Below, piece by piece: positions 1 through 36,270 of a stretch of 37,183 bases of DNA. Position numbers and translations under genes: made by a program. Numbering within the stretch: position 1 is the first letter of the stretch; each line of letters begins with the position of its first letter. The notes beneath the pieces are model-generated. The model saw nothing but the letters and a program-made list of their open reading frames with translations, was not told the DNA's origin and searched no databases. Origin of the DNA: an uncultured Olsenella sp. (GTDB lineage Bacteria; Actinomycetota; Coriobacteriia; Coriobacteriales; Atopobiaceae); assembly GCA_949296375.1 (NCBI GenBank), contig CASFQX010000183.1, positions 1-37,183 of the forward strand. Reading direction: 5' to 3'.

Positions 1-1035
1 ATGTACCTCTCCAAGGTCCAGACGAAGACCGCCCTCGCGGTGCCGTTCGCGATCTTCTTTGGCGCCATCGAGTTCATGTTCTTCTTCTCGAGCCTCACGA
101 AGTTCTTCCACGGCGGCTACGTCACCGTGATCATGAGCTTCCTCATCTTTGTGGTCATGTACGTGTGGCGCCGCGGCACGGCCGTGGAGCGCACCCAGAC
201 GGTGTACCTGCCCGTCAACAAGTACCTGGACCAGATCTTTGACCTCTCCCATGACGAGGACTACCCGCTGCTTGCAGACAACCTCGTATTCCTCACCAAC
301 GACTCGTCCTTTGACAAGCTGGACCGCGACATCCTCTACTCGATCCTGGACAAGCGTCCCAAGCGCGCGAAGGCCTACTACTTCCTCAACGTCCAGGTGA
401 CCGACGAGCCCTACACGCACGAGTTCATCGTCAACGACTTTGGGACGGACTTCCTCTTCAAGGTGCAGCTGCGCCTGGGCTTCAAGGTCAACCAGCGCAT
501 CAACACCTACCTCTACCAGATCGTTGCCGACCTCATGGAGCGCGGTCAGCTCGCGCCGCAGAACCACAAGTACTCGATCTACCTCGAGCGCGGCACCGTG
601 GGAGACTTCCGCTTCTGCCTCATTCGCAAGATGCTCTCCCCCGAAACGGACCTCTCCGGCTTTGACCAGCGCCTCATCGAGCTCAAGTACCTGATTCGTG
701 GCTTCTGCGGGTCGCCGGCACGCTGGTACGGCCTGGAGAACTCGAGCGTGATCTTTGAGTACGTGCCGCTTTTCTCCAAGACCAAGCGCCAACACAAGCT
801 CTCGCGTCGCGCACTCGAGGAGGTGGCGCCCGCGGTTGCCGCCAAGCTCGCCGAGGAGCGCGAGAACGGTGACGATGACGACATCTTCTCCGTCCAGATG
901 AAGGGCGAGCGCGAGGCTCAGGCCGAGGAGGCCATCCGCGGGCTCGTTGGCGGTGACACCGCGAGCTTCCGCCCGCTCGTCATCGACGAGGAGGACGAGG
1001 AAGGCTCCGAGGAGTTCCAGGAGGGCGAGGAGTAG
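1..1035 (+). CDS. kup: Kup-type potassium uptake protein, C-terminal part (cut by window start)
   Basis: About 344 residues of a KUP/HAK/KT-family K+ transporter are present. The N-terminal membrane domain lies outside the window. The visible part opens with two hydrophobic segments (about residues 12-33 and 38-56). The Lys-Phe-Phe-His-Gly-Gly stretch between them matches the family's conserved spot before its last helix. A long hydrophilic cytosolic domain follows, as is usual for Kup. The last 60 residues are very acidic (Asp/Glu runs), an unusual tail. The first ATG in the window is probably internal. The gene ends in TAG and is followed by a hairpin terminator. The family imports K+ across the cytoplasmic membrane, usually with protons. 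Family assignment is fairly sure; substrate is inferred from the family. Confidence 0.8.
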   Translation: MYLSKVQTKTALAVPFAIFFGAIEFMFFFSSLTKFFHGGYVTVIMSFLIFVVMYVWRRGTAVERTQTVYLPVNKYLDQIFDLSHDEDYPLLADNLVFLTNDSSFDKLDRDILYSILDKRPKRAKAYYFLNVQVTDEPYTHEFIVNDFGTDFLFKVQLRLGFKVNQRINTYLYQIVADLMERGQLAPQNHKYSIYLERGTVGDFRFCLIRKMLSPETDLSGFDQRLIELKYLIRGFCGSPARWYGLENSSVIFEYVPLFSKTKRQHKLSRRALEEVAPAVAAKLAEERENGDDDDIFSVQMKGEREAQAEEAIRGLVGGDTASFRPLVIDEEDEEGSEEFQEGEE

Positions 1036-1316: not shown

Positions 1317-2162
1317 TCACGAACCGGCCAGGACGAGAAGCAGCATCGCCTCGGCGGCCCATATGAAAAACAGCGTCCACAAAATGCTGTCCAGCTTGTT
1401 GAACGGCTGGTACACATACTTCAGCACAGATGCGACAAAGACGGCGACGCTCGCGACCACGCCGGCAAACGCCAGGGCCAGAGATGCCTGGCCACCCCGA
1501 AAGCCGTAGGCGATCGCAAAGATCTCCATCAGCACGCAGGCCACGGCGGCAACCTTGAGCATCATGAGGTTCTTCGTGCGCGTCTCGTAGATGGAGACGA
1601 CGTCGGACCTTCCCTCGGAGGAGAGGGGCTTTGAACCCAGCGCGAGATAGCAGCGACGGGCGAGCATCAGGCCGTTGCCCCTGTCCGCAAGCGCCGCGGC
1701 CCGATTGTAGAGCTCGTTACCCGAGATGCTCCAGAGCGGCGCGCCGAGATGAGCCGTGTCCTTGGAGGAGAGCGAGAGGGTCGAGATGAGGCCGAACACC
1801 CTCTGACGGTCCACGCCCCCGGCGATTGCGAGCGCGGAGGTGAGGCAGATCGCATTCCACCTGTCCCCATCAGGGCACCTCTCGGATACGCACTCGATCG
1901 CGTTGGCAAGCTCGGTGGACCCAGTCGTGGCGTCAAACGTCCGCGCAAAGACCAGGGCGGGGCCAACGGTCTCCCCCTCCTCGTGGAGCGCGGAGCAGTA
2001 GAGCGGGCGCTTCATCTCCTCCGGGACCGGCATCGCCGCTATCGAGTTTCTGTCCTCGAGCGCGTTGAATCCCTGTCGCATGATGAGCTCCCCCAGAATG
2101 CCGGCAGCGTAGTCGATGTCCGTCATGCTGAGCGTACGCATACCCTGAGCAACCTGTGGCAC
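1317..2162 (-). CDS. Unknown protein with three C-terminal membrane segments (last gene of the GTPase/tubulin operon)
   Basis: I do not recognise this family. About 180 soluble, mainly helical residues at the N-terminus are followed by three predicted membrane segments. These start near Leu-Lys-Val-Ala-Ala, Ala-Ser-Leu-Ala-Leu and Asp-Ser-Ile-Leu-Trp, and the last runs to within a few residues of the C-terminus. There is no signal peptide. The start is uncertain. GTG at 2162 has a GAGAGG site 9 nt upstream and is preferred. GTG at 2183 has no visible site, and ATG at 2141 has a poorly spaced one. It follows the kinase-like gene and is the last gene before repeat cluster 1, so it is probably co-transcribed. 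It could tether the cytosolic GTPase complex to the membrane or be its membrane-acting output. Both ideas are inference from position and topology only. Confidence 0.75.
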   Translation of the reverse strand: MPQVAQGMRTLSMTDIDYAAGILGELIMRQGFNALEDRNSIAAMPVPEEMKRPLYCSALHEEGETVGPALVFARTFDATTGSTELANAIECVSERCPDGDRWNAICLTSALAIAGGVDRQRVFGLISTLSLSSKDTAHLGAPLWSISGNELYNRAAALADRGNGLMLARRCYLALGSKPLSSEGRSDVVSIYETRTKNLMMLKVAAVACVLMEIFAIAYGFRGGQASLALAFAGVVASVAVFVASVLKYVYQPFNKLDSILWTLFFIWAAEAMLLLVLAGS

Positions 2163-2209
2163 CTCGATCGTCCTCTCTTCCACGGCGTGATACTACGAAC
2201 TGCTTCCCG

Positions 2210-3289
2210 TCACGCGGACGGAAGCGGGGGCCTCTCGAGATAGCTCCTCAGATCCTCCCGGATGGCCTCGGGGATGGCGAGCCAGTTCTCCTCAAAGATC
2301 TCGTCGCCGGCAAAGCCGTTCTCCCCGCCAACGCGATTGGAGTCGTCATCCGGGTCGAAGATGAAGACCGGGTTCTTCTGGTAGAGCCGCAGCCAGCGTC
2401 GATGCTCCGCGGGGTTTCCGTTGGTCTCGGGCAGCACGATCGGGCCGTAATACGGGAGGCGCCCCACGAGAAGGCGAAACAGCATGGCTCGCCGGGCGAA
2501 CAGGTCGGAGTACGCCGGAAGCTCGATGGTGTTGCCAACCTTGTAGTCGGCGGACGCCAACTGGAAGGCACGGGGGTCGAGATAGTCGAGGGACAGGCCA
2601 AGGTCGTGATCGCCAACCATGATGATCGGGACCCTCTTCTCGGGATCGATCGCCCCCGACTCCCCGGCACCGCAATATGCCGTCGAGAGACAGAACCCAA
2701 ACTTCACCGAGCCGTTGGCGTCATAGTACATCCTGCTGGGATCAAAGCCAAAGTAGAGGATCCCCGTTGAGTTGAGGAACTGCCAGGACGAGGTCAGCGA
2801 CGTTGCCACCGCGAGTCGAAGGGCGCGCTGCCTTGCCGCCTCCTCCCCGAACACCCCCATCGGCATGCCACCGGTCCAGTTGACCAGGAGGTTGGAGAGG
2901 GGCTGATAGCGCGCCACGTCACGGTCGAGCGGAAAGACGAGGTAGCTCCACTCGCCCTTGTTCGTGACAACGTCAATCGGCCAGACGAACCGGCTTCTCG
3001 GCATCGGTCGCTTTGCCAGGGGAACCCACCGCTCCTCGACCTCCTTGAGGGGAATCCAACCCCCGAAGGAGCTTCTCGAGCCATTGTTTCCCCAGGGGGG
3101 AATGGGCACGGCGTAATAGAGGTCACCGGTCTGCACATGCTTGACGAGGCGCTGCCTCGTTCCGCCAAAGGCGAACTCCGTCTGGTCCGGCAGAAGAACG
3201 TACATGTTGAAGCCGCTCACCAGGCTGAAGAGAACCTCCTCGGGCACCGCCTCGAGCGACTTGTGGTCGATTCCATAGGTCGCCCTCAC
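2210..3289 (-). CDS. Kinase-fold protein, probably a pseudokinase
   Basis: The 359 residues follow a protein-kinase layout like that of bacterial kinases encoded with vWA proteins. There is a Gly-containing N-lobe (about 40-60), a hinge-like stretch (FVWPIDVV at 101-108, then YLVFPL at 116-121), and a C-lobe with LFRLLVGRLPYYGP at 270-283. NPVFIFDPDDDSNR at 306-319 also resembles the end of that C-lobe. The catalytic loop reads YFGFDPSRM (179-187) and the DFG site reads VKFGF (195-199), so both catalytic aspartates appear to be missing. This suggests binding or scaffolding rather than phosphotransfer. GTG start at 3289 has GGGAGG 5 nt before it and overlaps the upstream stop as GTGA, giving tight coupling to the GAP1-like protein. 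The kinase-fold call comes from reading motifs and needs a profile search. Confidence 0.7.
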   Translation of the reverse strand: MRATYGIDHKSLEAVPEEVLFSLVSGFNMYVLLPDQTEFAFGGTRQRLVKHVQTGDLYYAVPIPPWGNNGSRSSFGGWIPLKEVEERWVPLAKRPMPRSRFVWPIDVVTNKGEWSYLVFPLDRDVARYQPLSNLLVNWTGGMPMGVFGEEAARQRALRLAVATSLTSSWQFLNSTGILYFGFDPSRMYYDANGSVKFGFCLSTAYCGAGESGAIDPEKRVPIIMVGDHDLGLSLDYLDPRAFQLASADYKVGNTIELPAYSDLFARRAMLFRLLVGRLPYYGPIVLPETNGNPAEHRRWLRLYQKNPVFIFDPDDDSNRVGGENGFAGDEIFEENWLAIPEAIREDLRSYLERPPLPSA

Positions 3290-5493
3290 GAGTGCCTCCC
3301 ACCCTTTCTGCGGAACAGGCCACCGTCACGCGGGGAGCCGTGACTCTCCGCGCGGGCCGCGCGCTTGTCCTCTTTCCGAATGCGCTTGAGCTGGCTCTTG
3401 ATCGAACGTGCCATGAAGCCCGCAAGGTGCGCATAGGGGGCGTCGGTCTTTGACAGCTCCTCGCAGTCGGCCATTATGCGCTCGAGGGCGCCGCTCTCGC
3501 GCAGTCCGACGGCGCGCTCGAGAAGCTCCTCGCACTTCTCGCGGTCCTCCGGAATGACACCGTGACCCAGCAGGAACTCCGTCGCGCGCTCTCCCCCAAC
3601 GAGCTGGACGGCAACGCTGTACCAGAGGTCGAGGCCATAGGGGGCCAGCCCCCCGTCGCAGGGAAGGATCTCGTCGACCGTCCGATTGAAGAGCCTCGTG
3701 GCGCTCTCGCGATTCTCCAGCTTGTCCAGGGCGGAGATGAAGTCCGGGATATGCCTCTGGAGCAGCTCCTCGTGACCGCTGAGCACGTCGTTGACGAGCT
3801 GCGAGGCGCTCGCGAGCGCGCGGTACTGGGGGCACCTCGCGTTGAGGACGCTGTCGTAGTAGCCGATGTCAAAGGTGAAGGAGACAAACGAGAACTTTGC
3901 CCAGTACGCGCCGAGCACGTCTCCCCAGATGGAGTTGGTCGCAGCCGGGGAGAGCCGCATCTTCTTGAAGAACCACCCGAAGTACCTGGAGAACTGTTGG
4001 GGGTCCCCGTCCTCGGGCACCTTGTCGAGGGCAAAGAGTCGGCAGAGCTCCACATAAGACCGCTCCGCCCGGGAGCCGCTCCCCAGGAAGGAGGTCTCGT
4101 CGCTAAAGGCGAGAAGGGCATCGGGCGTCAGGTCCGCACCCTGCGCGACAAGAGCCTCCGAGACGCGGTCGGCGTAGAACGCCTCAACGATCTCAGCGCC
4201 CCCGGGAGCCCCCATGAGGGCGTCGCGGAGGCGGAGAAACGCCGCAGTCGAGCGGCTCTCCCGCGAGGGAAAGCGCTCGAAGAGGTAGGCGGAGCCGCCG
4301 GCCGTACCCCTGCGAACAAGAACCCGCACGTGATAGGAAAAGCCCGTCTCTCTCAGCGTGGCGAGCTCCGTGGCATCGAGCGTCGCGTCGAGGCGACCCT
4401 CCTCCTCCGCGTCGAGCTCCACGTCATACTCGATGATCTCGCCGAGCGCAAAGTCGATGAGCCGGTCCCTCTCGAGCAGGCGCGCCCGATCGCCCGAGGC
4501 GGGCAGCGCCAGGCAACCGGCAAGCCGCTCGCGAAGCGTCTTGGCGTCGATGAGGTGCTCCTCGCCCGGAAGCCGGGGAATCCTGCCCTCCTCCGCGAGA
4601 CGCTCATAGGCGAGCTGGTAGGCAAAGGGAACCGCCGCGCCATCGTCGCAGAAGGTGGCGACGCGGCGCTCGAGCAGGTCGAAGACGGAGTCGAGGTCGA
4701 CCCCGCTACCGCTGGCGCAGATCGGAAGCATGGCAAAGTCGTACCTGGGGCGCAGCGGGCTCTGAGCCTGCCCGGGCTGGGCAAGCGTCACCTGACCCGT
4801 CTGGAGCGAGAAGGCCTTCCCACGCGCCTTCTCGGAGAAGACGACGTTCGTGGGCATGCCGCGGTTGGTGGAGAGCGTGCTATAGGCCACCTTGTCCCTA
4901 AGACCATAGGGAATTCCCTGGTAGATGCAGGTCAGAAGCGCATGCAGCGTCTCCTCGGAGCAGTCGCACTCAACCTCGAAGGGCTTGCCCACGAAGCCCC
5001 CCACGCTCATGGACTCGTACACGCAGGCGAGAAGGGCCGCGTATGCTTCGTCGCCCAGGCCGATCGCCTCGCGAGCCCGAGGCAGCGTCAGCGGCTCACG
5101 AAGGGACACATGCACGTTCTCCGGCTTCGTCGCCTCCTCGGTGAAGCCAAAGCTCTCGTCCGCCACGCAGAGCGCCGCCTGGGGGTCACGCTCAAACGCC
5201 GCGCGGTCGAAGACAAAGCCGTGGGCAAAGGCAGAGGGCCTGCGCCGACGATCCGGAACCCCGTACGTCAGCGTGGTGAGAAAGACGTAGGGCCCCACCG
5301 ACCTCAGCTCTCGCACCTTGCGGAGCTTGCCCGCCGGCGACACGCTCGAGACGCTGCCGACGCTGCCCGACTGGGCGCGCGAGAACGCGGCGACGGCATC
5401 ACCCGGCACGCCCTCGGACACGTTCAGGGTCTGCCATCCCGAGCCGGAGCCCTGCATACCCGTTCGTGCGTAACAGATCTGCCTGTATTCCAT
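3286..5493 (-). CDS. GTPase-associated protein 1 (GAP1)-like protein
   Basis: A 735-aa soluble protein with no signal peptide or membrane segment. The N-terminus resembles the GAP1-N2 domain of actinobacterial GTPase-associated proteins: it opens with Tyr-Arg-Gln-Ile-Cys-Tyr-Ala, has Gly-Trp-Gln-Thr-Leu-Asn at 19-24, and a His in FAHGFVFD near 91. The remaining 500 residues are largely helical and end in a basic tail. In related loci these proteins sit beside a TRAFAC-type GTPase, as here. They are thought to act with it, but their biochemical role is not established. The frame stays open upstream into the GTPase gene. ATG at 5493 is chosen because a GGAACGGAGAG site precedes it and the N-terminal motif begins there. 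It lies 53 nt after the GTPase stop and shares a 4-nt overlap with the next gene. Confidence 0.75.
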   Translation of the reverse strand: MEYRQICYARTGMQGSGSGWQTLNVSEGVPGDAVAAFSRAQSGSVGSVSSVSPAGKLRKVRELRSVGPYVFLTTLTYGVPDRRRRPSAFAHGFVFDRAAFERDPQAALCVADESFGFTEEATKPENVHVSLREPLTLPRAREAIGLGDEAYAALLACVYESMSVGGFVGKPFEVECDCSEETLHALLTCIYQGIPYGLRDKVAYSTLSTNRGMPTNVVFSEKARGKAFSLQTGQVTLAQPGQAQSPLRPRYDFAMLPICASGSGVDLDSVFDLLERRVATFCDDGAAVPFAYQLAYERLAEEGRIPRLPGEEHLIDAKTLRERLAGCLALPASGDRARLLERDRLIDFALGEIIEYDVELDAEEEGRLDATLDATELATLRETGFSYHVRVLVRRGTAGGSAYLFERFPSRESRSTAAFLRLRDALMGAPGGAEIVEAFYADRVSEALVAQGADLTPDALLAFSDETSFLGSGSRAERSYVELCRLFALDKVPEDGDPQQFSRYFGWFFKKMRLSPAATNSIWGDVLGAYWAKFSFVSFTFDIGYYDSVLNARCPQYRALASASQLVNDVLSGHEELLQRHIPDFISALDKLENRESATRLFNRTVDEILPCDGGLAPYGLDLWYSVAVQLVGGERATEFLLGHGVIPEDREKCEELLERAVGLRESGALERIMADCEELSKTDAPYAHLAGFMARSIKSQLKRIRKEDKRAARAESHGSPRDGGLFRRKGGRHS

Positions 5494-5546
5494 CTGCGTC
5501 TCTCCGTTCCCGCTGTAAACGCAGCCTGAGCCGCACCCGTCAGTCC

Positions 5547-7079
5547 CTAGAACACCCCGAACATCTTCTTGTGATTGCCAAAGCGATCGGTCTTGCAGCC
5601 CTTCGTGCCGCACCACTGAGACGCGCCGCTGTTGAGCGCACCGCAGCTGGGGCACCTCCACTGGCCAAACCGGTTGAGTCGGCAGTTGGGGCAGAAGTCC
5701 TCGGTCGCACGGATGTGGGGCCTGCCGCAGAACTGGCACGTCCAGTCCCCGGGCTCGTTGATGAAACCTCGAACCTCAAGGATCGGCCGCAGGTCCCCCC
5801 TACCGATGGGAAGCTTGCTCAGGATCCACAGGATGGGCTCGATGATGCGCTTGGGCCTCGGCTTTGCGCTCGGGACCATGAACGAGAAGCCGCCCTCGCC
5901 CTCCTGCTCGACGAGGTCGACGCCAATCGACTCGATCATGAAGTAGTTATAGCAGCCGTAGTTCATGCTCAGCGTAGTATGGAGGGGGACGTCGAACGCC
6001 ATGTTGCGAACGAAGGCCTCGATCCTGTCGCGGAGCTCGTTGTAGTCGGTGACGCTGAAGGGCTCACCCATCCCCTCGTTGACGCGCATCTCCGGGAGCG
6101 CGGGGACGTGGATGATGTCGGAGCAGAACGTGGGGGCGTACTTGTCGATCGTGCCGTCGGGGAGCTGCGGCTTGCCGTCTGCCTGGGAGATGCACACGGC
6201 GAGGGGAAGATGCCTGAGCCTCTCCCTGTCAAACATCGAGTCGATGACGGTCAGGGCGGTGACGGCATCCTCGTGGTCGTCGTCACCGGAGAACTGCATC
6301 GGGTCGATGAGCATGATGATCGCGTCGGAGTGGCGGATGAACGGGCCAAAGCGCTTCGCCGACTCCGCCACGTCTGCCCTGCCCTCGGCAAACTGGAGGT
6401 TCTCGCCTGCGATGTCGTAGAAGACGAAGGTCTGGGAGTGGGGCTGCCCCATGCTGTCCCTGAAGGAGAAGTCAAAGCACAGGGGCTGCTGGAAGATCTC
6501 GGGTGGCGTGGGCTGAGGGAGAAGGGCGTTGGCGGCAACCCGGTTGGTGGTCATGTACTCGTGGGCGTACGCCGAGGTCGGCATGACGGCGATGTTGTAC
6601 GCCCCCATGCGCGCGGCCATGAACTTGCAGAGCTGCGAGAGATAGACCGTCTTGCCGGCGCCCGAGATGCCGATCAGCGAGATGAACTTGACCGGATAGC
6701 GCCCGTAACGCCCGGGCAGGGGATTGTGGCAGTGCGGGCAGACGCGGCGCTCGGTCACGGTGTCATGGCGGTCCTTCACGCCGATGACGATGTCGTCCCC
6801 CACGAGAAAGCGAGCCGTCCCCCCAAACACGTCCTTCGTCGCCGGGTCCATGGGATCATAGACCGGGCGAAGCCACGGAGAGACGTCTCCGGCGCGGTCG
6901 CGGCTCGGCGAGAACAGCTCGGTGGTACCGCCGAAAGGCTCCCAGAACTCCTCGTATTTGCTGTCGGTCCGTGGCGCGAAGGCCTCCTCCTCGGGTTCGA
7001 CCGTCTCCATGCGGAAGTGCACCTTGGCATCGTCGAACTGTTTGAAGCAGTACGGACAGGTAATCGTGTGTCCGGGCAT
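5547..7079 (-). CDS. Zinc-ribbon P-loop GTPase (TRAFAC type)
   Basis: A 510-aa protein with a P-loop GTPase core flanked by zinc-binding motifs. An N-terminal CPYC (8-11) pairs with CPHC (114-117). Walker A is GISGAGKT (137-144), the Walker B/G3 element is FYDIAGE (220-226), and the G4-like site is SQAD (298-301) where NKxD would be usual. The last 60 residues carry three further CxxC-type knuckles, CQFC, CPNC and CPSC, plus a final Cys pair. The fold fits the TRAFAC-clade GTPases found next to GAP1 proteins in actinobacteria. It should be a soluble regulatory switch rather than a translation factor. ATG at 7079 has an AGGAGG site about 10 nt upstream. The GAP1-like gene follows 53 nt downstream, which points to a shared complex. 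Confidence 0.85.
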   Translation of the reverse strand: MPGHTITCPYCFKQFDDAKVHFRMETVEPEEEAFAPRTDSKYEEFWEPFGGTTELFSPSRDRAGDVSPWLRPVYDPMDPATKDVFGGTARFLVGDDIVIGVKDRHDTVTERRVCPHCHNPLPGRYGRYPVKFISLIGISGAGKTVYLSQLCKFMAARMGAYNIAVMPTSAYAHEYMTTNRVAANALLPQPTPPEIFQQPLCFDFSFRDSMGQPHSQTFVFYDIAGENLQFAEGRADVAESAKRFGPFIRHSDAIIMLIDPMQFSGDDDHEDAVTALTVIDSMFDRERLRHLPLAVCISQADGKPQLPDGTIDKYAPTFCSDIIHVPALPEMRVNEGMGEPFSVTDYNELRDRIEAFVRNMAFDVPLHTTLSMNYGCYNYFMIESIGVDLVEQEGEGGFSFMVPSAKPRPKRIIEPILWILSKLPIGRGDLRPILEVRGFINEPGDWTCQFCGRPHIRATEDFCPNCRLNRFGQWRCPSCGALNSGASQWCGTKGCKTDRFGNHKKMFGVF

Positions 7080-7131
7080 CTGTCTTGTTCCTCCTCGTCC
7101 AAAGGCCCGCTCCGCTCGAGCGAGCCCCTTG

Positions 7132-7839
7132 TTACGCCGTTACCACCTCGTAGCCCTGCCCCTGGCTTCTCACCACGGGTGGAAGGCCCGAGCCGCCCTG
7201 CAGGGCAAGCGGCCTCACGCACATCGTCTTTCCCAGCATCTCCCTTGTTATGGGAAAGCGCAGACCCGTACCCTCGAACTCGTACCAGAGCCAGGTCTCG
7301 TCGCTCTCGGGAATCTCGCCCTCGAGCGTGACGCTCAGCAGATAGCAGGTAAGAACCCTCTCGGGGGCGCGGTCGAACACCCGCGTGAAGCGTCCGAGCC
7401 CGTCCGCCCCGCGATCAGTCCAATAGGGACTCACGCTCGCGTGTACCACACCGGGAACGTCGCAGGCGGCCTCCGCTCCCTCGGGAACATAGATCACGAG
7501 CTCGTCGGAACTCATGTCATGCGCGCACCCAAATACGGCGTACCGAGCAAACCTCTGCGTGCACCGATAGGAGTCCGAGCGGATGGCGCCCCTCCTGAGC
7601 AGCGCCACGCTGCGCCCGTCACCTAGGTCAAAGGGCGTCCCCGAACTCGAGAACAGACTTGCCCCCAAGTTCTCGAGGGCGGCCCTCAGCCCGTCGTCAA
7701 TCTCGATGTGCGTGCCGTAGCGCCCGCACACCACGAGCGCATAGCCCACGCCCACGGAGTCCCAGACCAGCTCCCTGGCGAGCATCGCAACGTTGCGGAC
7801 GCAATGTCCCTCGTCAGCAGGAGTCGTTGTTACGCGCAT
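7132..7839 (-). CDS. Unknown 235-aa protein of the GTPase/tubulin operon
   Basis: I do not recognise this protein. It is soluble, rich in aromatic residues and beta-type sequence, and lacks signal or membrane segments. Four cysteines are scattered without an obvious metal motif. The C-terminal third (WLWYEFEG near 190, then RFPITREMLG) looks like a compact beta domain. An upstream GTG at 7869 is possible, but ATG at 7839 follows a GGGGGTG site at good spacing and lies 10 nt after the stop of the 670-aa gene. That close spacing suggests joint translation. The GTPase gene begins 52 nt downstream. It may be an adaptor between the tubulin-like and GTPase parts, on operon position alone. Confidence 0.7.
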   Translation of the reverse strand: MRVTTTPADEGHCVRNVAMLARELVWDSVGVGYALVVCGRYGTHIEIDDGLRAALENLGASLFSSSGTPFDLGDGRSVALLRRGAIRSDSYRCTQRFARYAVFGCAHDMSSDELVIYVPEGAEAACDVPGVVHASVSPYWTDRGADGLGRFTRVFDRAPERVLTCYLLSVTLEGEIPESDETWLWYEFEGTGLRFPITREMLGKTMCVRPLALQGGSGLPPVVRSQGQGYEVVTA

Positions 7840-7849
7840 GGTCCACCCC

Positions 7850-9862
7850 CTATGCCCTGAGATGGTCACTCTTGAGCGGATAGAGCCACAGCGAAGTCGC
7901 GCAGTCCCGGGGACCAGCGCTCATGAAGACGCGAATCGTCCCGGCAGGCTTGCCCAGGCGGTCGAGATAGGCGTAGAGCTGGCCTGCCTCGCCGCCCCCG
8001 CTCATCTCGCTGTGGAGGAGATACGCCTCGCACGCCTGGTCCGTCATCGGTATGAGCGAGTTGTAGCCAACGTAGTTCGCCATGTTGTCCACGAGCTCCG
8101 ACCCCACGACGAGCTGGGCGGCCTCGGGGGCCTTGCCGTCGGCCCTGCGGGTGACCTGCTCCTCCATGAAGCCGAGCCTGAAGACCTGTCGCCCACCGTA
8201 GTCCAGGTCAAAGAGCGGGGTGAGCGCACGGTCCCTCAAGACGGCGAACATCTCCGCCTCGCCATTGCCAATCCGGTCCGTGATCGCGAAGAGGGCGTTG
8301 AGCCTCGCCTGGTCGCTCAGGTACGCATCCGTGCACCTGCCGTAGAAGCCGGTGAGGTTGAAGTGGGTTCCCTCCTCGTTAACGGAAGTGCCGAGCGCCA
8401 CGTCGTTTCTGAGACGCGCAAAGGCGTCCTCGGTGCGCTCCGCCTCGGCATACAGCATCTCTATGGCCCGGATGGTCTCCTCGCGCATGCGACGGGCGAT
8501 CTCTGCCCTCATCATCTGCCTCAGGGCGTCGAGCATCGGGAGCCGGTCGATCATGCCCTGAAGGTAGCTCTCGGAATAGAGCGACGACGCCGCGGCGACC
8601 CACTCGTCCTTCCGCAGGGAGAGCATCTTGACAGCCGTAAGCGAGGATGCCAGGCGCTGGACGATGCGATCGGAGAGCCCCAGGGAGTCGCCCGGACCAT
8701 CGAGAATGGCCTGCAAGCGGGCGAGGTGGTTCTCGTACACGAAGGCGGTGAGGCACCCGCAGGTCTCGGCATTGGCCTGGCCAAAGGTAAGGGTTCCTAC
8801 GTTGACGTTCGGTCTCAGCGTGGGAAGGTACAGCTCGAAGTTGGCAAATTCGTTGATCACGCCCTCGGAGAGACCGCCGTACTCCGCCATGAAGTCAGAG
8901 CGGCCGTTTGAGAAGCCCAGTGCGCGCTCGATCTCCGCCCTGCTCGGACGGACTTCGGAGACGCTGGCGTGAAACTCGTCGAGGCGCTCGACGATCCTTC
9001 GCAGAGCAACCGAGACGATGTCTCGCCGGGGCTTCTCCACCTGCTTGAACGCCGCGGTGACGCCAGCCTCGTGCCCAGAGGAGAACAGCAGCTCCTCGCA
9101 TGAGCGAGAGCTGTCACCAGAGGAGTTGGCGAGAACCATGACGCTGCTCACCACGTCCCAGTCACCGTTCTCCTCGGCACCGTGGGCGCTGAAGAGCCTG
9201 TTGTATCTCCCGCCCTTGCTGAGGTTCCCATAGAGGAAGACGCCGTCGTACAGGTGGCGCCGCTCCGCCCTCACCTGAGGGTCCTCATACAGGGAGGAGA
9301 GCGCGGCCTTTATCTCCTTGGCGTTGGAGGTTCCGAGGCTGTCGTCCAGGAGGACGATCAGCATCGTCCTCGTCTGGAGACCGTGCAGCATGAGCTCCAC
9401 GTCGGATACGACCCCATACCAGGAGGAGAACTCCTCCGCGGTCATGCCAGAGCTGTTGAGCACGAAGAAGAGCGAGCACTGCACCATGCTCTCGAAGATG
9501 CCCGAGCTTCCCATCATGAGCTGAACCATGCTCTGGAAGCCCCGGACGTCGAGCGGGGACCCCGTCCCGGCGTCGACCACGGCAGTGCCGAAGGCCCCGT
9601 ACGAACCCACGATCTGGTGAAGCGATGCCGGGTCGGGGATGGTCACGCAGGGAATGCGCGAAGCCTTCCCTCCCCAGCCCTCCTGGAGCCCGTCCAGAAC
9701 GGTGCCGTGAAAGGACGCGGACCCCTCGCCGCAGTAGATCACGCAGGCCGGGAAGCGCGGGCTGAGGTAGTCAAGCATACCCGTAGCCCGGCGCGACCTG
9801 AGGTTTCTCGCGGCGCTGTCTATGAGGGCGCCAACGTCCTGGATGGCATCAGTGGGACCCAT
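7850..9862 (-). CDS. Unknown 670-aa protein encoded directly after the tubulin-like gene
   Basis: I do not recognise the family. The first 300 residues alternate hydrophobic strands and helices like a Rossmann or P-loop-type alpha/beta fold (for example CVIYCGEGSASFHG, TMLIVLLDDS), but no intact Walker A or tubulin signature is visible. The middle (about 320-480) is helical and charged, and the end is a mixed region. There is no signal peptide. ATG at 9886 lies just after the tubulin stop. ATG at 9862 is preferred because GGAGG stands 8 nt before it. The gene begins 28 nt after the tubulin-like gene and ends 10 nt before the next. A partner that reads or caps the tubulin-like polymer is a reasonable but untested guess. 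Confidence 0.75.
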   Translation of the reverse strand: MGPTDAIQDVGALIDSAARNLRSRRATGMLDYLSPRFPACVIYCGEGSASFHGTVLDGLQEGWGGKASRIPCVTIPDPASLHQIVGSYGAFGTAVVDAGTGSPLDVRGFQSMVQLMMGSSGIFESMVQCSLFFVLNSSGMTAEEFSSWYGVVSDVELMLHGLQTRTMLIVLLDDSLGTSNAKEIKAALSSLYEDPQVRAERRHLYDGVFLYGNLSKGGRYNRLFSAHGAEENGDWDVVSSVMVLANSSGDSSRSCEELLFSSGHEAGVTAAFKQVEKPRRDIVSVALRRIVERLDEFHASVSEVRPSRAEIERALGFSNGRSDFMAEYGGLSEGVINEFANFELYLPTLRPNVNVGTLTFGQANAETCGCLTAFVYENHLARLQAILDGPGDSLGLSDRIVQRLASSLTAVKMLSLRKDEWVAAASSLYSESYLQGMIDRLPMLDALRQMMRAEIARRMREETIRAIEMLYAEAERTEDAFARLRNDVALGTSVNEEGTHFNLTGFYGRCTDAYLSDQARLNALFAITDRIGNGEAEMFAVLRDRALTPLFDLDYGGRQVFRLGFMEEQVTRRADGKAPEAAQLVVGSELVDNMANYVGYNSLIPMTDQACEAYLLHSEMSGGGEAGQLYAYLDRLGKPAGTIRVFMSAGPRDCATSLWLYPLKSDHLRA

Positions 9863-9890
9863 TCCGTCTTCCTCCGTACTCACCATGCCC

Positions 9891-12800
9891 CTAGAGCTTG
9901 ATGTAGTAGTGCTTGACGAAGAGGTTGAGAGAGTCCTCGACGTCCTTGATCAGGCCCTTCACGTCCGAGACCTCGCGCGGGAACTCGACGTTTGCGATCG
10001 AGACGAGGCCCTTCTTGTCCGAAAGCGCCTCGGAGAGGGCGCGGCACGCCTCGGTAACCTCGTCGGGAAGCCTGTCCATGTTGATAATCTTGTCAGTCTC
10101 CTCGACGATGGCAGCGCGAATCTCGGGATCGATCTGCTTGAAGCTGAGGAACGCCTGGTACAGCGGGACGCCGCCACGCTCCATCTGAGGCTTGGAGAGG
10201 ACGGTCTCGTCGCCAAATTCGCTGTTGACGTACGTGACGCGCGGCAGGTCGAGCTTGATCACGCCCGTGAAGAGCGCCTTGCGGAACTCGTCGAGGTCCT
10301 TGTCCACCTTGGGCTCGAGGGCCTCGATGTCCGCCGCCATCTCGTCGCACTTGGCGAGCTCGGAGTCGATGAGCTCCTGGATCTTGGGGGCGTTGACGAG
10401 GCGGTCGATGCAGAGCACGCGCTCGATGTCGTCGTTGCCGGGCCGGAGCTCGGTAGAGAGCACGATGCTTCCAGGCTCGAAGACGCGGTTCTCGCTCATG
10501 CTCCTCAGCGCTGCCTGGGCATCGAGCTTCTCGTCGTTGGGCTTGTCCTTGGCAACCTCAAACTTGCTGCGGAACTCCGTCATGAAGGAGCTCGCGATGA
10601 CGCGGACCTCAAACCCGGTGACGGTCTTCTGGATCACGCCGCCGGCGATGCCCCTGTCGTATGCGGAGACAGCGGACTCGGCGCGCTCGAGGACGCGCGG
10701 GTTGTTCTGCTCGGTCATCATGCTCTTGGGCGTTGGGGACGGCAGGAGATTCCAGTCGCGGCTCTCGACCTGCGGAACGCCCTCGACGTACTCTGCCTTC
10801 TCGTAGAGGTGCTTGCCCGGGCGCGGGGAGGAGTCGAGCTCGTACTGCTTGACGCCCTTGTAGCCCCACATCGGGACGCCGATGAGGCAGCGCAGGATGG
10901 AGATGCGGTCGCGGACCGTGGTCTCGCGGACGGTGAGCTTCTGGTTTGCCTGGGCCTCCGCGAGCATCGTTGCGGCATCGACCACCTCGGCTGCGAGCTG
11001 GGGCACCGTGACGTATCCGATGGCGCAGGCGTCGTTCACGTTGTAGCCCATCTCGGTCCAGAACAGCGGCGCCGCGTTGTCGTTAACAACCTGGAGCAGG
11101 TCGTTGTAGATGTTGTTGGCGAGGCGGATGGGATCGGTCGTCTTGTACTTGTCCTGCAGGAACTCAGAGAGCGAGCGGGTCGAGTAGATGCTGAAGCGGT
11201 TGAGGAAGAACTGCGACACGATGTGTGCCATGCGGCTCTCGTCCCCGTTGGGGCCCCAGCTCTTGATGCCCTCCTCGGTGAGGAGCTCGCCCATGAAGTC
11301 GCGCGCGACGGAAGGCACGTCGAGGGCGTTGAGCGTGGTGTTGAGCGTGGGGAGAAGGTCGTTCATCGAGACGAGCGGCATCTCGTAGGGGTTCTTCTTG
11401 TCCGCGAAGGCCTCGAGCTCGGCACGGTTTGCCGCAAAGACCGTGAAGAGGTTGGCCATGGTCTTGCGGAAGGGGTCGGTGAACTCGTTCGCGAGGCGTC
11501 GCACCTGCTCGGCCACGGCGTCCATGAGGTTCATGACCGTCTGGTACGTGAGGACCTCCGCCTGGGTGAGGTAGAGGTTGCGAGTCTGGTTGACAAAGTC
11601 GCGGAAGTGGCGCCCGATGTTGAGCACGTTTGCGTGGCGGAAGGCGTTCTGCGCCTGCTGCTGCTGGAAGTAGAGGTGATCATCCAGCTGGAACTGAGCG
11701 TGGTCGCGGCGGCTCCTCGCCTCCTCGCGGATGCCCGTGCAGGCGGCGAGAAGATCGGAGCCCGACGTGCCGCGCACGAGGGTGGCGGCATATGCGGGAC
11801 CAGCGGCGGGGCTGGACATGGCCACGCGCAGCTCAGAGAGGACGTTGGCCATCAGGGAGCTGTTGCCCACCACGGCACCGCCGATCGTCGGGGCGTACGT
11901 GGGCGGCACAGAAGAGAGGTCCCTGAGATTCTTGGCGAGCGTGCCCTCGACGCGCGCGAACATGCTCTGGAACCAGGTGACGACGAGCCTCTCGTTCTCC
12001 TGGGCGTCACGGGGCTTGACGTCGGGAACGGGAAAGGACATGTCGATGCCCATGCGGACTCGATAGAGCACCTGATCGAAGGTGAAGCCAATCCGCTGCT
12101 GGAAGCCGCGGGACTCCTCGATCGTGGGAACGCGGTTCTGAACGTACTCAAAGCCGGCGAAGACGCCCGAGGCGAGGTAGGTAAGCACCTGCTTGAAGGG
12201 GATCACTGCGCTGGCGGCGCCCAGAATCAGGTAGTCGTAGCAGGCGCCAGCGTTCTTGCGGATGTACGCCTTGTTGGACGTGACGTTGGAGAAGTGCGAG
12301 TTGAGGTCAAAGCTGTTGACGGAGTCGGAGCGCACGAGGAAGTCCATGACGTAGTCGGTGACCACGTTGAGGGAGTAGCGGTACGCCTCCGGGACGACGG
12401 CACCCGAGCTCGTGGTAGCCGAGACGAGGTGGCACCACTCCACGGGCGGGTGGGACGTGCGGATCTCGCCGATGGCGCCGGGATAGGTCTGGCGCCACTC
12501 GTCCCCGTTGTGCTCGAGGTTCATGCAGTAGTCGAGCTCCTGCATGGAGGCGTAGCCGTTGCTCTTGATGTAGGTTCTCGTCTCGGCAGAGAGACCCTCC
12601 TTGGCGAGGTTCACGTCGGGCAGGAAGAAGTAGCCCATGGTCTTGTAGTTGCCCACACCCTCGTTAATGAGGGCTTTCTGGACCAGGTAGCAGGCGTCGA
12701 GGAAGGTGCCCGCACCCGTGCCGCCGCCCATGCCCGAGAAGATGTGAATGTCAACGGGGCAGGAGCCGAGGCCCGTCATCGCCTGGTGGACCATCTCCTG

Positions 12801-13304
12801 GACCTTGGCCACAAACTGCTCTGCCTTCTGCATGAGCAGGAAGCGGCCGAGATGGCGGATGCCGCCCGCACCGTTGTCCGCCTCCGCGGCGTCAATCTTG
12901 TCAAACTGGAGCCACTCGCGATACACGGGGTCGCGAGCGAGGCTGGAGCGCATCGTCTGGAACAGGTTGGAGATCTTCTTGTCATAGGAGATGTCAAAGA
13001 ACTCGCTACTGAGGTTGAGCTCACCGAGCGCGCCATCCTCGGTCTCCGTCGAGGTCTTGGCCTTCTGGACCATGTCGCGCTTGTCGGTGTCAACGGCAAG
13101 GAACTTGACATGCGAGTAGACGGGAACCACGGCATTGGGATCGTCGGGCTTCACGCGGTTGTAGAGCTTTTGCTTGAGGTTGCGCAGGGCGTCCACACCG
13201 GTGCCGCCCAAGCCGATGGCGATGACCGCGCAGTTGTCCTGTTCGGATTGCTGAACGCGATCGATGATTCCGCCGCCCGCAGCCAGAAGTAGCTTCTCGT
13301 ACAT
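9891..13304 (-). CDS. Large tubulin/FtsZ-like GTPase
   Basis: A 1137-aa protein with a tubulin-type nucleotide fold at its N-terminus. IAIGLGGTG (28-36) matches the first glycine loop, and the signature GMGGGTGAGT (191-200) matches the tubulin/FtsZ GGGTGTG loop. FLAVDTD at 68-74 fits the strand after it. Residues beyond about 420 are largely helical, with several coiled-coil-like stretches. That makes it about three times the length of FtsZ and places it with the bacterial tubulin-like family (Pfam Tubulin_2 type). Such proteins are expected to bind GTP and may polymerise. It is not the cell-division FtsZ by length or context. ATG at 13304 follows AAAGGGGAGAGC; an in-frame GTG 15 nt upstream is less likely. 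A hairpin separates it from the vWA gene. Confidence 0.85.
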   Translation of the reverse strand: MYEKLLLAAGGGIIDRVQQSEQDNCAVIAIGLGGTGVDALRNLKQKLYNRVKPDDPNAVVPVYSHVKFLAVDTDKRDMVQKAKTSTETEDGALGELNLSSEFFDISYDKKISNLFQTMRSSLARDPVYREWLQFDKIDAAEADNGAGGIRHLGRFLLMQKAEQFVAKVQEMVHQAMTGLGSCPVDIHIFSGMGGGTGAGTFLDACYLVQKALINEGVGNYKTMGYFFLPDVNLAKEGLSAETRTYIKSNGYASMQELDYCMNLEHNGDEWRQTYPGAIGEIRTSHPPVEWCHLVSATTSSGAVVPEAYRYSLNVVTDYVMDFLVRSDSVNSFDLNSHFSNVTSNKAYIRKNAGACYDYLILGAASAVIPFKQVLTYLASGVFAGFEYVQNRVPTIEESRGFQQRIGFTFDQVLYRVRMGIDMSFPVPDVKPRDAQENERLVVTWFQSMFARVEGTLAKNLRDLSSVPPTYAPTIGGAVVGNSSLMANVLSELRVAMSSPAAGPAYAATLVRGTSGSDLLAACTGIREEARSRRDHAQFQLDDHLYFQQQQAQNAFRHANVLNIGRHFRDFVNQTRNLYLTQAEVLTYQTVMNLMDAVAEQVRRLANEFTDPFRKTMANLFTVFAANRAELEAFADKKNPYEMPLVSMNDLLPTLNTTLNALDVPSVARDFMGELLTEEGIKSWGPNGDESRMAHIVSQFFLNRFSIYSTRSLSEFLQDKYKTTDPIRLANNIYNDLLQVVNDNAAPLFWTEMGYNVNDACAIGYVTVPQLAAEVVDAATMLAEAQANQKLTVRETTVRDRISILRCLIGVPMWGYKGVKQYELDSSPRPGKHLYEKAEYVEGVPQVESRDWNLLPSPTPKSMMTEQNNPRVLERAESAVSAYDRGIAGGVIQKTVTGFEVRVIASSFMTEFRSKFEVAKDKPNDEKLDAQAALRSMSENRVFEPGSIVLSTELRPGNDDIERVLCIDRLVNAPKIQELIDSELAKCDEMAADIEALEPKVDKDLDEFRKALFTGVIKLDLPRVTYVNSEFGDETVLSKPQMERGGVPLYQAFLSFKQIDPEIRAAIVEETDKIINMDRLPDEVTEACRALSEALSDKKGLVSIANVEFPREVSDVKGLIKDVEDSLNLFVKHYYIKL

Positions 13305-13321
13305 GCTCTCCCCTTTCACTG

Positions 13322-13343
13322 CGGAGGCCCCGAGGGGCCTCCG
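13322..13343 (-). terminator. Intercistronic hairpin between vWA and tubulin-like genes
   Basis: A 10-bp perfect stem (CGGAGGCCCC with GGGGCCTCCG) around a 2-nt centre sits 9 nt after the vWA stop and 18 nt before the tubulin-like start. No T tract follows on the minus strand. Partial termination or RNA processing that sets the vWA to tubulin ratio is more likely than full termination. Confidence 0.5.
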
Positions 13344-13352
13344 TCCTCATTC

Positions 13353-15557
13353 CTAGTAGTAGGCCCCGCCGTTGCCGTTGTTATTGCCATAGGCCCCGCC
13401 GTTGCCGCCGTAGGCTCCGCCTCCGTAGGGGTCTCCCCCGTAGGCGCCGCCCGACGCGCCGCCATAGGGGCCGCCGCCGTCGCCATAGCCGCCCGACACG
13501 CCGCCGTAAGGGCCGCCGCCGGGCATGCCGCCGGGCATGCCGCCGCCAAAGCCGTCTCCGCCAAAGCCTCCGCTCATGCCGGAGTCGCTCTTGCGGCTTA
13601 CGAAGCGGACGATGACGCCGCGCTGCATGCTCTGGTCCGTCGAGATTACGGTCTCGAACCCATTACCCGGGACCTTGATCTTCTTGGTCATCATTCCGCC
13701 GGCGAAGATGGGATCTTTGCTCACAAAGGTCACGTAGTCCTTGCCGGAGGCCTGGAAGTACGCCTTCTTGGGGTTGATCCCAAACGTCTCGCACCCAAAG
13801 GCGAAGAGCCTGAGGCGTCCACGGCCCTTCTCGCGAGAGACCTCGTCAAAGTACGCATATCCGCTCGTGTTGTCGAAGGGCCTCACGTAGCAGACGCCGT
13901 AGAAGCGCTTGTTGAGGGCAATCCAGAGCAGGATGCCGAGAATCGCGAGCACGACGACCGTCGCGATGCCAATGCCGATGAGCGTCAGCAGGCCAATGTT
14001 GACCGTGGCGACCCTCACGTCAAAGGTGCACCAGCCTCCGTCCGGGTCCGTCGCACGCACGGTGAAGGAGCCCTCGGAGAGGCTGTAGCTCGTGATGACG
14101 AGGTTGGACCCGTCGATCTCGTATTCGTCCGACATGAACGAGCTCGAGTCAACGGAGTACTCGAGGTCTCCCCCGTCGGGGTCGCTCGCGCCGGGAGTGA
14201 GGTCGATCGTTGCGGTGTTGTCCATGAAGGGCCACAGGTAGACGGTCTGCTCGATGACCTGACCAGTCGGCACGGGCGCCGCGTTCTCAACGTTGAAGAC
14301 GAGCTCTGACGTGGCAAGTTCAAAGCCCTCGCCCTCCACCTTCGCAGACACGGTGTACGAGCCTCGCTCGGAGAGCTCGAGCTCGGCAAAGAGCGCGCGG
14401 TTCCCCGCCTCGAGCTCAACGGTGTCCTCGTCTCCGGAGGAGTCAGTCACGGCAAGCTCACCGGTGAAGTACTGGTAGACGTCGCCGGAGACGGCTCTTC
14501 CGTCCTCGAGCAGCGAGACCTCCACCCTGACGGAGTCGCCGGTCTCCAGGACGTCGTCCTCGTCCACGTTGGACTCGATCTGAGTGTTCACGTTGACGTT
14601 CCTGACGATGTCAACGCTCACGCTGTCATCGTCAACGTCTGCGACCTTGTAGTTCCAGGTACCGGGCTCGGGGTCCTCGATCTTGACGACCGTAAGCCCC
14701 TCCGTGGAGAACGTCACGTCCTTGAGCTGGCTCTCGGGAAGCGTGGACCCGCTCGGCTCCACAAAGGTCAGCTCGGTGGGCTCTCCGGAGATCGCGATGT
14801 TGACCTCCTCCACGCCGATCCTCGCGATGTCAAAGGACCCCTGGGCCCCGCCCGGCGTGGAGATGGAACCAAAGATGATGCTCTGATACAGGCGATACAC
14901 GTCATCGAGGTCGGAGGCGTCGGAGACCTCCCTGAACTCGCCCCCCGTCGCAGATGCCAGCTGCTCGAGCTCCGCGGAGTTTGCCTCGCCGTTGGCGTTG
15001 AGGCTCACGGCATAGATCACGTAGCCGTTCTGGCGGGCGCGCTCGACCGCGGAGGACTTGGCGTCGTTGGAGGCTTTGAGCGAGTCCTCGTTCGGCATGT
15101 CCGTGTTGCCGTCCGAGAGAATCAAGATGATCGAGGGGAGGTCTTCGTCTCCCTGCTCGTCAAGCATGTCGACGGCGGCATCGAGGCCCTCGCCGATGTT
15201 GGTCCAGCCCTCGAGCTCAACGTCCCTGTTCTGGTCGATGAGGTCGTCGCGCGACTCCCTCGTCGAGATCGCGGACATCGGGACCTCAAGCGGAACCCCC
15301 TCGCCAAAGGCCACGGAGCCAACGTTGTTGCCCTCCATCGTCAGGAGGTACAGGAAGTTGGCCATGGACCTAAAGCGCAGCTCGTCGGGATCGGTCTCGA
15401 GAAGGGAGCCGCTCGCGTCGGTCACGAGCACCACGTTGAAGCGGTTGGTCTGGCCGTCGCTCTCGTCAGCGAGCGCTCGCGATGGCGCCAAAAGCAGGGA
15501 GCAGAGCACGAGACATATGACGCTCAATACTCGTAGCACGCGTTTCCGCTGGTACAT
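13353..15557 (-). CDS. Membrane-anchored vWA-domain protein with Gly/Tyr-rich tail
   Basis: A 734-aa protein in five parts: a Sec signal peptide (1-30, likely cut after Ala-Leu-Ala), a vWA domain, beta-rich Ig/cadherin-like extracellular modules (about 250-520), one membrane segment (about 522-548), and a cytosolic C-terminal region. The vWA metal site is intact: DASGS at 47-51, Thr119, and Asp149 in LSDGNTD. The cytosolic part has a roughly 110-residue beta domain and then a 75-residue tail made almost only of Gly, Tyr, Pro, Ala and Asn. ATG at 15557 follows AAGGGGG. This is the first gene of the minus-strand operon, so the protein likely senses or binds something outside and signals to the tubulin/GTPase proteins inside. 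The domain calls are direct; the sensor role is inference. Confidence 0.85.
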   Translation of the reverse strand: MYQRKRVLRVLSVICLVLCSLLLAPSRALADESDGQTNRFNVVLVTDASGSLLETDPDELRFRSMANFLYLLTMEGNNVGSVAFGEGVPLEVPMSAISTRESRDDLIDQNRDVELEGWTNIGEGLDAAVDMLDEQGDEDLPSIILILSDGNTDMPNEDSLKASNDAKSSAVERARQNGYVIYAVSLNANGEANSAELEQLASATGGEFREVSDASDLDDVYRLYQSIIFGSISTPGGAQGSFDIARIGVEEVNIAISGEPTELTFVEPSGSTLPESQLKDVTFSTEGLTVVKIEDPEPGTWNYKVADVDDDSVSVDIVRNVNVNTQIESNVDEDDVLETGDSVRVEVSLLEDGRAVSGDVYQYFTGELAVTDSSGDEDTVELEAGNRALFAELELSERGSYTVSAKVEGEGFELATSELVFNVENAAPVPTGQVIEQTVYLWPFMDNTATIDLTPGASDPDGGDLEYSVDSSSFMSDEYEIDGSNLVITSYSLSEGSFTVRATDPDGGWCTFDVRVATVNIGLLTLIGIGIATVVVLAILGILLWIALNKRFYGVCYVRPFDNTSGYAYFDEVSREKGRGRLRLFAFGCETFGINPKKAYFQASGKDYVTFVSKDPIFAGGMMTKKIKVPGNGFETVISTDQSMQRGVIVRFVSRKSDSGMSGGFGGDGFGGGMPGGMPGGGPYGGVSGGYGDGGGPYGGASGGAYGGDPYGGGAYGGNGGAYGNNNGNGGAYY

Positions 15558-15810: not shown

Positions 15811-15936
15811 CGCTCGTCTCAGCCCCTTGCGGTTCTCGCTTGACGAAAGCGGGCTCGTCTCAGCCAATTCCCGCGCCAATCCTGAGACGAGGCCGGGATC
15901 GTCAAGCCGAGAAGCCCCTCGCCCTGAGACAAGGCC
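15811..15936. repeat. Palindromic intergenic repeat, cluster 2
   Basis: Four units of the same repeat as at 1105-1282: a partial inverted copy (15811-15825), a full inverted copy (15839-15865), a direct copy (15881-15914), and a worn direct copy (15922-15936). CTCGTCTCAG and CTGAGACGAG arms of the central pair can form a 10-bp stem. The cluster lies between the citrate synthase terminator and the vWA operon leader. Confidence 0.8.
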
Positions 15937-36154: not shown

Positions 36155-36270
36155 CTTGACGTAAGCGGGCTCGTCTCAGCCTGAAGGTTCATTTCGGCTG
36201 AGACGAGCCCACTTTCGTCAAGCGAGAAGCCAGCAACCCTGAGACGAGCCCGCTTTCGTCAAGCCTGAAG
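36155..36270. repeat. Palindromic intergenic repeat, cluster 3
   Basis: Three units of the same repeat as at 1105-1282 and 15811-15936: one inverted (36155-36181) and two direct (36196-36229, 36238-36270). The first pair forms a 15-bp perfect stem (36167-36181 with 36196-36210) around a 14-nt loop. It lies between two convergent gene ends, like cluster 1, and is the best-preserved copy. Confidence 0.85.

Follow-up and report, generated by a model that had tools for sequence, protein, structure and literature searches.

The 37,183-nucleotide stretch analyzed here (the window) is contig CASFQX010000183.1 of an uncultured Olsenella sp., and its minus strand carries, between positions 15557 and 1317, a run of eight open reading frames (ORFs), A to H. 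They encode a von Willebrand factor A (vWA) surface receptor, a tubulin-like GTPase, a predicted pseudo-tubulin, a small conserved protein, a zinc-ribbon DO-GTPase, a GTPase-associated protein 1 (GAP1), a predicted pseudokinase, and a protein with three C-terminal transmembrane (TM) helices (Table 1). We conclude that the eight genes are one co-inherited, horizontally transferred system. With gene starts chosen by ribosome-binding sites, the run is compact: the gaps measure 48 nt (A-B), 28 nt (B-C), 10 nt (C-D), 52 nt (D-E), 53 nt (E-F), and 26 nt (G-H), and F and G overlap by 4 nt, the sole overlap. This agrees with the original prediction, a reading of the DNA alone, which had also named a membrane vWA protein, a tubulin-like GTPase with the motif GMGGGTGAGT, a zinc-ribbon P-loop GTPase, a GAP1-like protein, a kinase-like protein without catalytic aspartates, and a three-helix membrane protein; each of these identities is borne out below. 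Of the two proteins it listed as unknown, D indeed has no Pfam or PDB match, whereas the larger, C, has a predicted tubulin fold.

Table 1. Cassette genes and flanking genes in the window, with the evidence for each assignment
Feature	Coordinates	Strand	Evidence
A: vWA surface receptor, 734 aa	13353..15557	-	VWA_2, TM prediction, MIDAS
B: tubulin-like GTPase, FtsZl1/Tubulin_2 family, 1137 aa	9891..13304	-	PF13809
C: predicted pseudo-tubulin, 670 aa (678 aa if started at the upstream ATG, 9886)	7850..9862	-	AlphaFold and structural alignment
D: small conserved protein, 235 aa	7132..7839	-	18-sequence family
E: zinc-ribbon DO-GTPase, 510 aa	5547..7079	-	PF19993, alignment
F: GAP1, N2 type, 735 aa	3286..5493	-	GAP1-N2 in relatives
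G: predicted pseudokinase, 359 aa	2210..3289	-	AlphaFold/Foldseek; HRD and DFG aspartates absent
H: soluble domain and three C-terminal TM helices, 288 aa, start codon uncertain	1317..2183	-	TM prediction
KUP-type K+ transporter, C-terminal part, hotspot flank	1..1035	+	Name by sequence resemblance, not profile search
Citrate synthase, opposite hotspot flank	16022..17473	-	Name by sequence resemblance

The host is represented by a fragmented metagenome assembly with 88% completeness and 5% contamination; misassembly is unlikely, since the flanks are typical of the genus and the arrangement is identical in a sister genome. Between the window and that relative, Atopobiaceae bacterium L009 (record L093), the ratio of nonsynonymous to synonymous substitution rates (dN/dS) is 0.09 to 0.25 for the cassette genes and 0.075 for citrate synthase. 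The cassette genes are thus under purifying selection and kept functional, which argues that they are more than chance ORFs. The highest values fall in the C-terminal half of the GAP1 (up to 0.46) and in parts of A, C, and H; A, C, F, and H evolve faster than B, E, and G.

Relatives were found with iterated profiles for all eight proteins. Tubulin B is present in 5 of the 398 genomes of the class, with 22 loci in GTDB contigs, and the C family in 1 of the 396 genomes of the phylum. The order A-B-C-D-E-F-G-H is shared with L009, Bifidobacterium callimiconis (L010/L048), and many Clostridia; A to F are also retained in Eubacterium cellulosolvens and an Oscillibacter-type subgroup, where G and H are undetectable. 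In many relatives H is followed by genes for a polytopic membrane protein, with 8 to 13 predicted helices, and for another vWA protein; the window has neither. Distances in the gene trees are correlated (r mostly 0.80 to 0.97, all permutation p values about 0.001 to 0.002), the vWA receptor A giving the least congruent tree (r of 0.52 to 0.78). The trees cut across the species: the window, L009, G232, Bifidobacterium, and one Clostridia bacterium cluster together, and G195 and G241, from the window's own family, cluster with other Clostridia. The congruence of trees that depart in this way from the species argues that the cassette moved as a whole unit. The original prediction, that the genes make up one system, would have fallen had they failed to co-occur in other genomes or had independent phylogenies; the eight families do co-occur, and their phylogenies are congruent. 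Chance adjacency of unrelated genes, to which we assign next to no likelihood, is refuted, since in about 20 loci the gene order is conserved and the trees agree.

ORF B was positively identified as a member of the Tubulin_2 family (PF13809; E value of 2.1e-56, 192 bits). The motif GMGGGTGAGT lies within the conserved glycine-rich loop, in which most glycine columns are invariant among 24 sequences; the window protein reads GGGTGAG, with alanine at the usual S/T position of the family consensus GGTGSG. Tandem sets of two or three tubulin genes occur in some relatives. B. callimiconis carries three in tandem, together with an additional 1054-aa DO-GTPase, and G232 (L031/L032) also carries three, with an in-frame TGA inside one match.

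ORF C gave no significant match to Pfam, NCBIfam, or PADLOC, and neither did D, G, or H. An AlphaFold model of the 678-aa version of C, built with 19 homologues, is confident (predicted local distance difference test [pLDDT] score of 83.9). A Foldseek search of the PDB returned tubulins as the best matches, at an E value of only 0.004, and VIA-align superimposed the model on the Odinarchaeota tubulin (OdinTubulin) with a Z score of 16.3 over 275 residues and a root mean square deviation of 3.9 Å. All 50 entries listed by VIA-align were tubulins with Z scores of at least 15.0, and the alignments span residues 44 to 678; the strands closing the C-terminal part of the tubulin fold are placed after a helical insertion of about 250 residues. 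The GTP-binding glycine loop (T4) is absent throughout the C family, the alignment reading VLDT/VLNSS-type sequence at the GGGTG position. Alignment of C with B by hhalign, using full and N-terminal alignments, detected no significant relation (18.8, versus 23.7 for a reversed control), PDB sequence searches with profiles of B, C, and D found nothing useful, and a single weak Tubulin_2 match was seen (E value of 0.092). Since sequence methods see no relation, the assignment of C comes from the predicted structure, which points to a full tubulin fold lacking the GTP loop, that is, a predicted pseudo-tubulin.

If this fold is right, every operon of the type is predicted to encode a GTP-type tubulin together with a pseudo-tubulin, and protein C could conceivably be the second tubulin that Kaur et al. 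(PMC7159879) note in firmicutes. Alpha/beta-tubulin, BtubA/B, and other tubulin pairs likewise comprise two tubulin-fold proteins encoded together; unlike the partners in those pairs, C lacks the GTP loop, has a large helical insertion, and shows no detectable sequence relation to B. The question of whether a pseudo-tubulin follows every Tubulin_2 gene received a weak yes at locus L069 (30.9, versus at most 22.1 for controls) and a no at L070. The gene after Tubulin_2 at the former, another actinobacterial locus (L069:1154-3484, minus strand), starts with a tubulin-like loop, VLIGLGEFGSSCL, and its product may be a second, independent pseudo-tubulin.

Receptor A matched VWA_2 (E value of 6.5e-9). 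It is predicted to consist of a signal anchor, an extracellular vWA domain, a beta-rich, Ig-like ectodomain, a TM helix, a cytoplasmic beta-rich part, and a Gly-rich tail; the metal ion-dependent adhesion site (MIDAS) of the vWA domain is intact (DASGS) and is kept in relatives. None of the eight cassette proteins matched fn3 in Pfam; the beta-rich ectodomain of A matched GBD_Hemicentin (E value of 9.5e-6), and fn3 repeats are said to be fast-evolving. ORF E exceeded the cutoff for DO-GTPase2 (PF19993; E value of 1.5e-9, 38.3 bits versus 27) and also matched a zinc ribbon, with zinc-ribbon cysteines at both ends. Its Walker A motif, GI(S/T)G(A/S)GKT, is conserved, its Walker B region carries a glutamate (D222..G225-E226, invariant in 17 sequences), and NKxD is replaced by an S(K/Q).D motif. 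ORF F lies directly downstream of the DO-GTPase gene. The GAP1-N2 match of the window protein is weak and below the cutoff (E value of 0.065), but relatives at the equivalent position exceed the cutoffs for GAP1-N2 (29.3 versus 24 in L013) and GAP1-M (27.9 versus 24 in Bifidobacterium).

For G, the AlphaFold model (pLDDT of 81.9) matched kinases by Foldseek, with an E value of 9.6e-9 and kinases in all 50 of the rows listed, and by VIA-align, with a Z score of 15.2; a single member of the family alignment scores above threshold for Pkinase (2.5e-17). The positions of the HRD and DFG aspartates are both occupied by other residues in the window protein, and many clostridial orthologues retain the aspartate at the HRD position and lack that at DFG. 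The model thus suggests a protein-kinase fold without catalytic residues, a predicted pseudokinase. Protein D belongs to an 18-sequence family whose gene separates C from the GTPase gene wherever the locus is complete. H, whose family follows G in most relatives, has three predicted C-terminal hydrophobic helices and is a candidate membrane output. The layout put forward in the original prediction, with the vWA domain outside, the GTPase and tubulin in the cytoplasm, and a membrane protein, agrees with these sequences; its picture missed the predicted pseudo-tubulin C and the exchange hotspot described below.

The citrate synthase and KUP genes that flank the cassette mark an insertion slot. 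In 19 sister genomes the slot is empty, with 104 to 521 bp between the two genes, and homology to the empty site stops within a few bases of both stop codons. In the window and in L093 it holds the cassette, 15 kb in length. In G306 (L098/L116; G306:C1:34001-53128) 19.5 kb separate citrate synthase from KUP and contain a complete HSP70 theme system of the GAP1-N2 class, consisting of two DO-GTPases, a GAP1 (GAP1-M over the cutoff), an fn3/zinc-ribbon protein, GrpE, a HerA-like ATPase, and two HSP70 proteins, one of them a vWA fusion. In G088 the only occupant is a 1367-aa DUF4062-NACHT-TPR protein (L095:1507-5610, minus strand), a candidate NADase defence protein; a recent study showed DUF4062 proteins to be NADases that confer phage defence (PMC13174449, a 2026 preprint). 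G184 and G1065, in which citrate synthase lies at a contig end, were left out of the resolved slots. DO-GTPase2 was found in 3 of 27 genomes of the genus, and every match lies at the citrate synthase–KUP slot; two unrelated DO-GTPase systems therefore share one insertion site and replace each other there. Neither citrate synthase nor KUP was found beside the cassette in G232, G195, G241, or Bifidobacterium, so the cassette inserts at other sites too.

Two published classes of system resemble the cassette. The original prediction knew of no characterized system with exactly this set; the wider idea that nothing similar is known finds no support. Kaur, Burroughs, Iyer, and Aravind (2020, eLife; PMC7159879) described GAP1-N2 systems combining tubulin, vWA, and DO-GTPase in firmicutes and actinobacteria; the tubulin combination is theme 1 of these systems, and a conflict function was predicted. 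The window shares with it Tubulin_2, a membrane vWA protein, a zinc-ribbon DO-GTPase2, a GAP1 just downstream of the GTPase, and the actinobacterial and firmicute hosts. It differs in having one tubulin plus a predicted pseudo-tubulin, a single GTPase, and no recognized fn3 protein; D, pseudokinase G, and the three-TM protein H do not appear in the main-text section of that paper on GAP1-N2 tubulin systems. Makarova and Koonin (2010, Biol Direct; PMC2875224) described neighborhoods of FtsZl1, vWA, GTPase, and kinase genes and proposed membrane remodeling. These share a long-C-terminal FtsZl1 tubulin, vWA, a P-loop GTPase, a kinase-family protein, and membrane proteins with the window; GAP1 is not described there, and the window differs in its predicted pseudokinase, its second, nucleotide-dead tubulin fold, and the lack of an OmpA-type protein. 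The HSP70 theme in the sister species (L098) has DO-GTPase2, GAP1, vWA, zinc ribbons, and the insertion site in common with the cassette, but has HSP70 and GrpE in place of tubulins as well as an fn3 protein, and its GTPase is distant from E (about 24% identity). The cassette is thus a compact variant of a class already known by prediction, the tubulin theme of the GAP1-N2/DO-GTPase systems; what is new is the predicted pseudo-tubulin C, the predicted kinase fold without catalytic residues in G, and the hotspot exchange. No experimental work on the GAP1-N2 tubulin theme or the FtsZl1/vWA/GTPase system was found in open-access full texts. FtsZl1-family tubulins have been without a known job since 2010, and GAP1-N2 systems are predicted to be immune with no test found; the cassette reduces the system to eight genes in a gut bacterium with a small genome and gives the tubulin an explicit candidate partner.

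The reading that we favor, whose chances we put at about even, is that the cassette is a horizontally exchanged immune or conflict-type system of the GAP1-N2/DO-GTPase class, which would sense the surface, be gated by GTP, and act through a polymer. An immune-type role is favored by the exchange at the slot with the HSP70 DO-GTPase system and the DUF4062-NACHT protein. A conflict function is supported in addition by the same prediction, made on independent grounds, of Kaur et al. (PMC7159879), by the patchy distribution of B and C, and by the low congruence of receptor A and the faster evolution of A, C, F, and H. We infer the localization of the parts, polymer formation, the order of signaling, the trigger, and the output as follows. 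The extracellular vWA ectodomain of A would sense a ligand or a surface disturbance and pass the signal through its TM helix to a cytoplasmic complex, where the zinc-ribbon DO-GTPase E and GAP1 F would form a threshold switch. Once licensed by this switch, tubulin B would assemble into a GTP-dependent polymer or scaffold, in which the nucleotide-dead C would be an obligate partner or form the cap, and pseudokinase G and protein D would have a scaffolding or allosteric adaptor role. Output at the membrane would come from H, the three-helix protein, and would stop growth or disturb the membrane of the cell under infection or attack. A more specific version is a possibility that we hold only tentatively: a tubulin/pseudo-tubulin heteropolymer would be the signaling core of an immune system, assembling when signaled by the DO-GTPase/GAP1 switch and the vWA receptor and triggering the membrane output, and the system would be functionally interchangeable at the slot with the HSP70 version.

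Several observations weigh against an immune role. Profile scans recognized no toxin, nuclease, or other killer domain in the eight proteins, none of which had a significant match in PADLOC-DB 2.0.0. Occupied slots are few (4 of 23 resolved), and the copies in the window and L093 are probably the result of one insertion event. In a further sister genome, G354, the slot neighbor downstream of citrate synthase is a 1784-aa CshA/G5/Rib surface adhesin (L101:1730-7084, plus strand; the contig ends before KUP), so the slot is perhaps not reserved for immune genes. The 92 proteins flanking other loci gave some defence-type matches together with housekeeping ones and, having no control set, were not used as evidence.

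The original prediction had left conflict or defence and envelope control both possible. The hotspot data favor the former, and envelope remodeling remains a live rival, which we judge unlikely on balance. In such a machine the tubulin pair would be a GTP-driven submembrane scaffold that, with the vWA and TM proteins, carries out envelope shaping, surface-structure deployment, or vesicle formation, as was proposed for FtsZl1 systems in 2010 (PMC2875224). This explanation fits the membrane nature of A and H, the further polytopic membrane and vWA proteins encoded in many relatives, and the giant adhesin that neighbors the hotspot in one sister genome; a housekeeping role, however, would predict neither rarity (5 of 398 genomes) nor transfer between phyla, and it would not lead one to expect an HSP70 system or a DUF4062-NACHT protein in place of the cassette at one site. 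Rarity and hotspot exchange also count against signaling of envelope stress or surface contact without immunity, in which adhesion or the binding of a ligand by vWA would act through the GTPase and a tubulin scaffold to control how the cell grows or adheres in its gut niche. The intact extracellular vWA metal site, the lack of a killer domain in Pfam, PADLOC, and NCBIfam searches, and the mostly gut or rumen anaerobic hosts are consistent with this scheme; it leaves the alternative occupants of the slot unexplained, and we consider it improbable. A tubulin homologue within a horizontally moving cassette might also suggest TubZ-like machinery by which a mobile element segregates or replicates. 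We rejected this explanation, to which we give very little credence, on the content of the junctions and on searches for the tubulin, which gave no match in phages or viral contigs and a single weak one in plasmids; at the junctions no integrase, replication, or centromere-like elements were recognized, and the insertion between housekeeping genes is clean. A single slot whose occupant is the tubulin cassette in some genomes, an HSP70 system in another, and a DUF4062-NACHT protein in yet another amounts to a natural experiment, and the exchange makes two things directly testable: whether the cassette serves in defence, and whether the tubulin and HSP70 versions are equivalent, as predicted.

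A promoter scan found no site above chance. Dispersed palindromic repeats resembling repetitive extragenic palindromic (REP) elements occur at positions 1105-1295, 15813-15907, and 36170-36207, with the core GGCTGAGACGAG and a spacing of about 41 nt. As these repeats are genome-wide, those flanking the cassette were ruled out as its boundaries. The core has 9 matches with at most 1 mismatch in the window, versus 0.7 expected, and 35 exact copies in the genome, versus 1 for the control.

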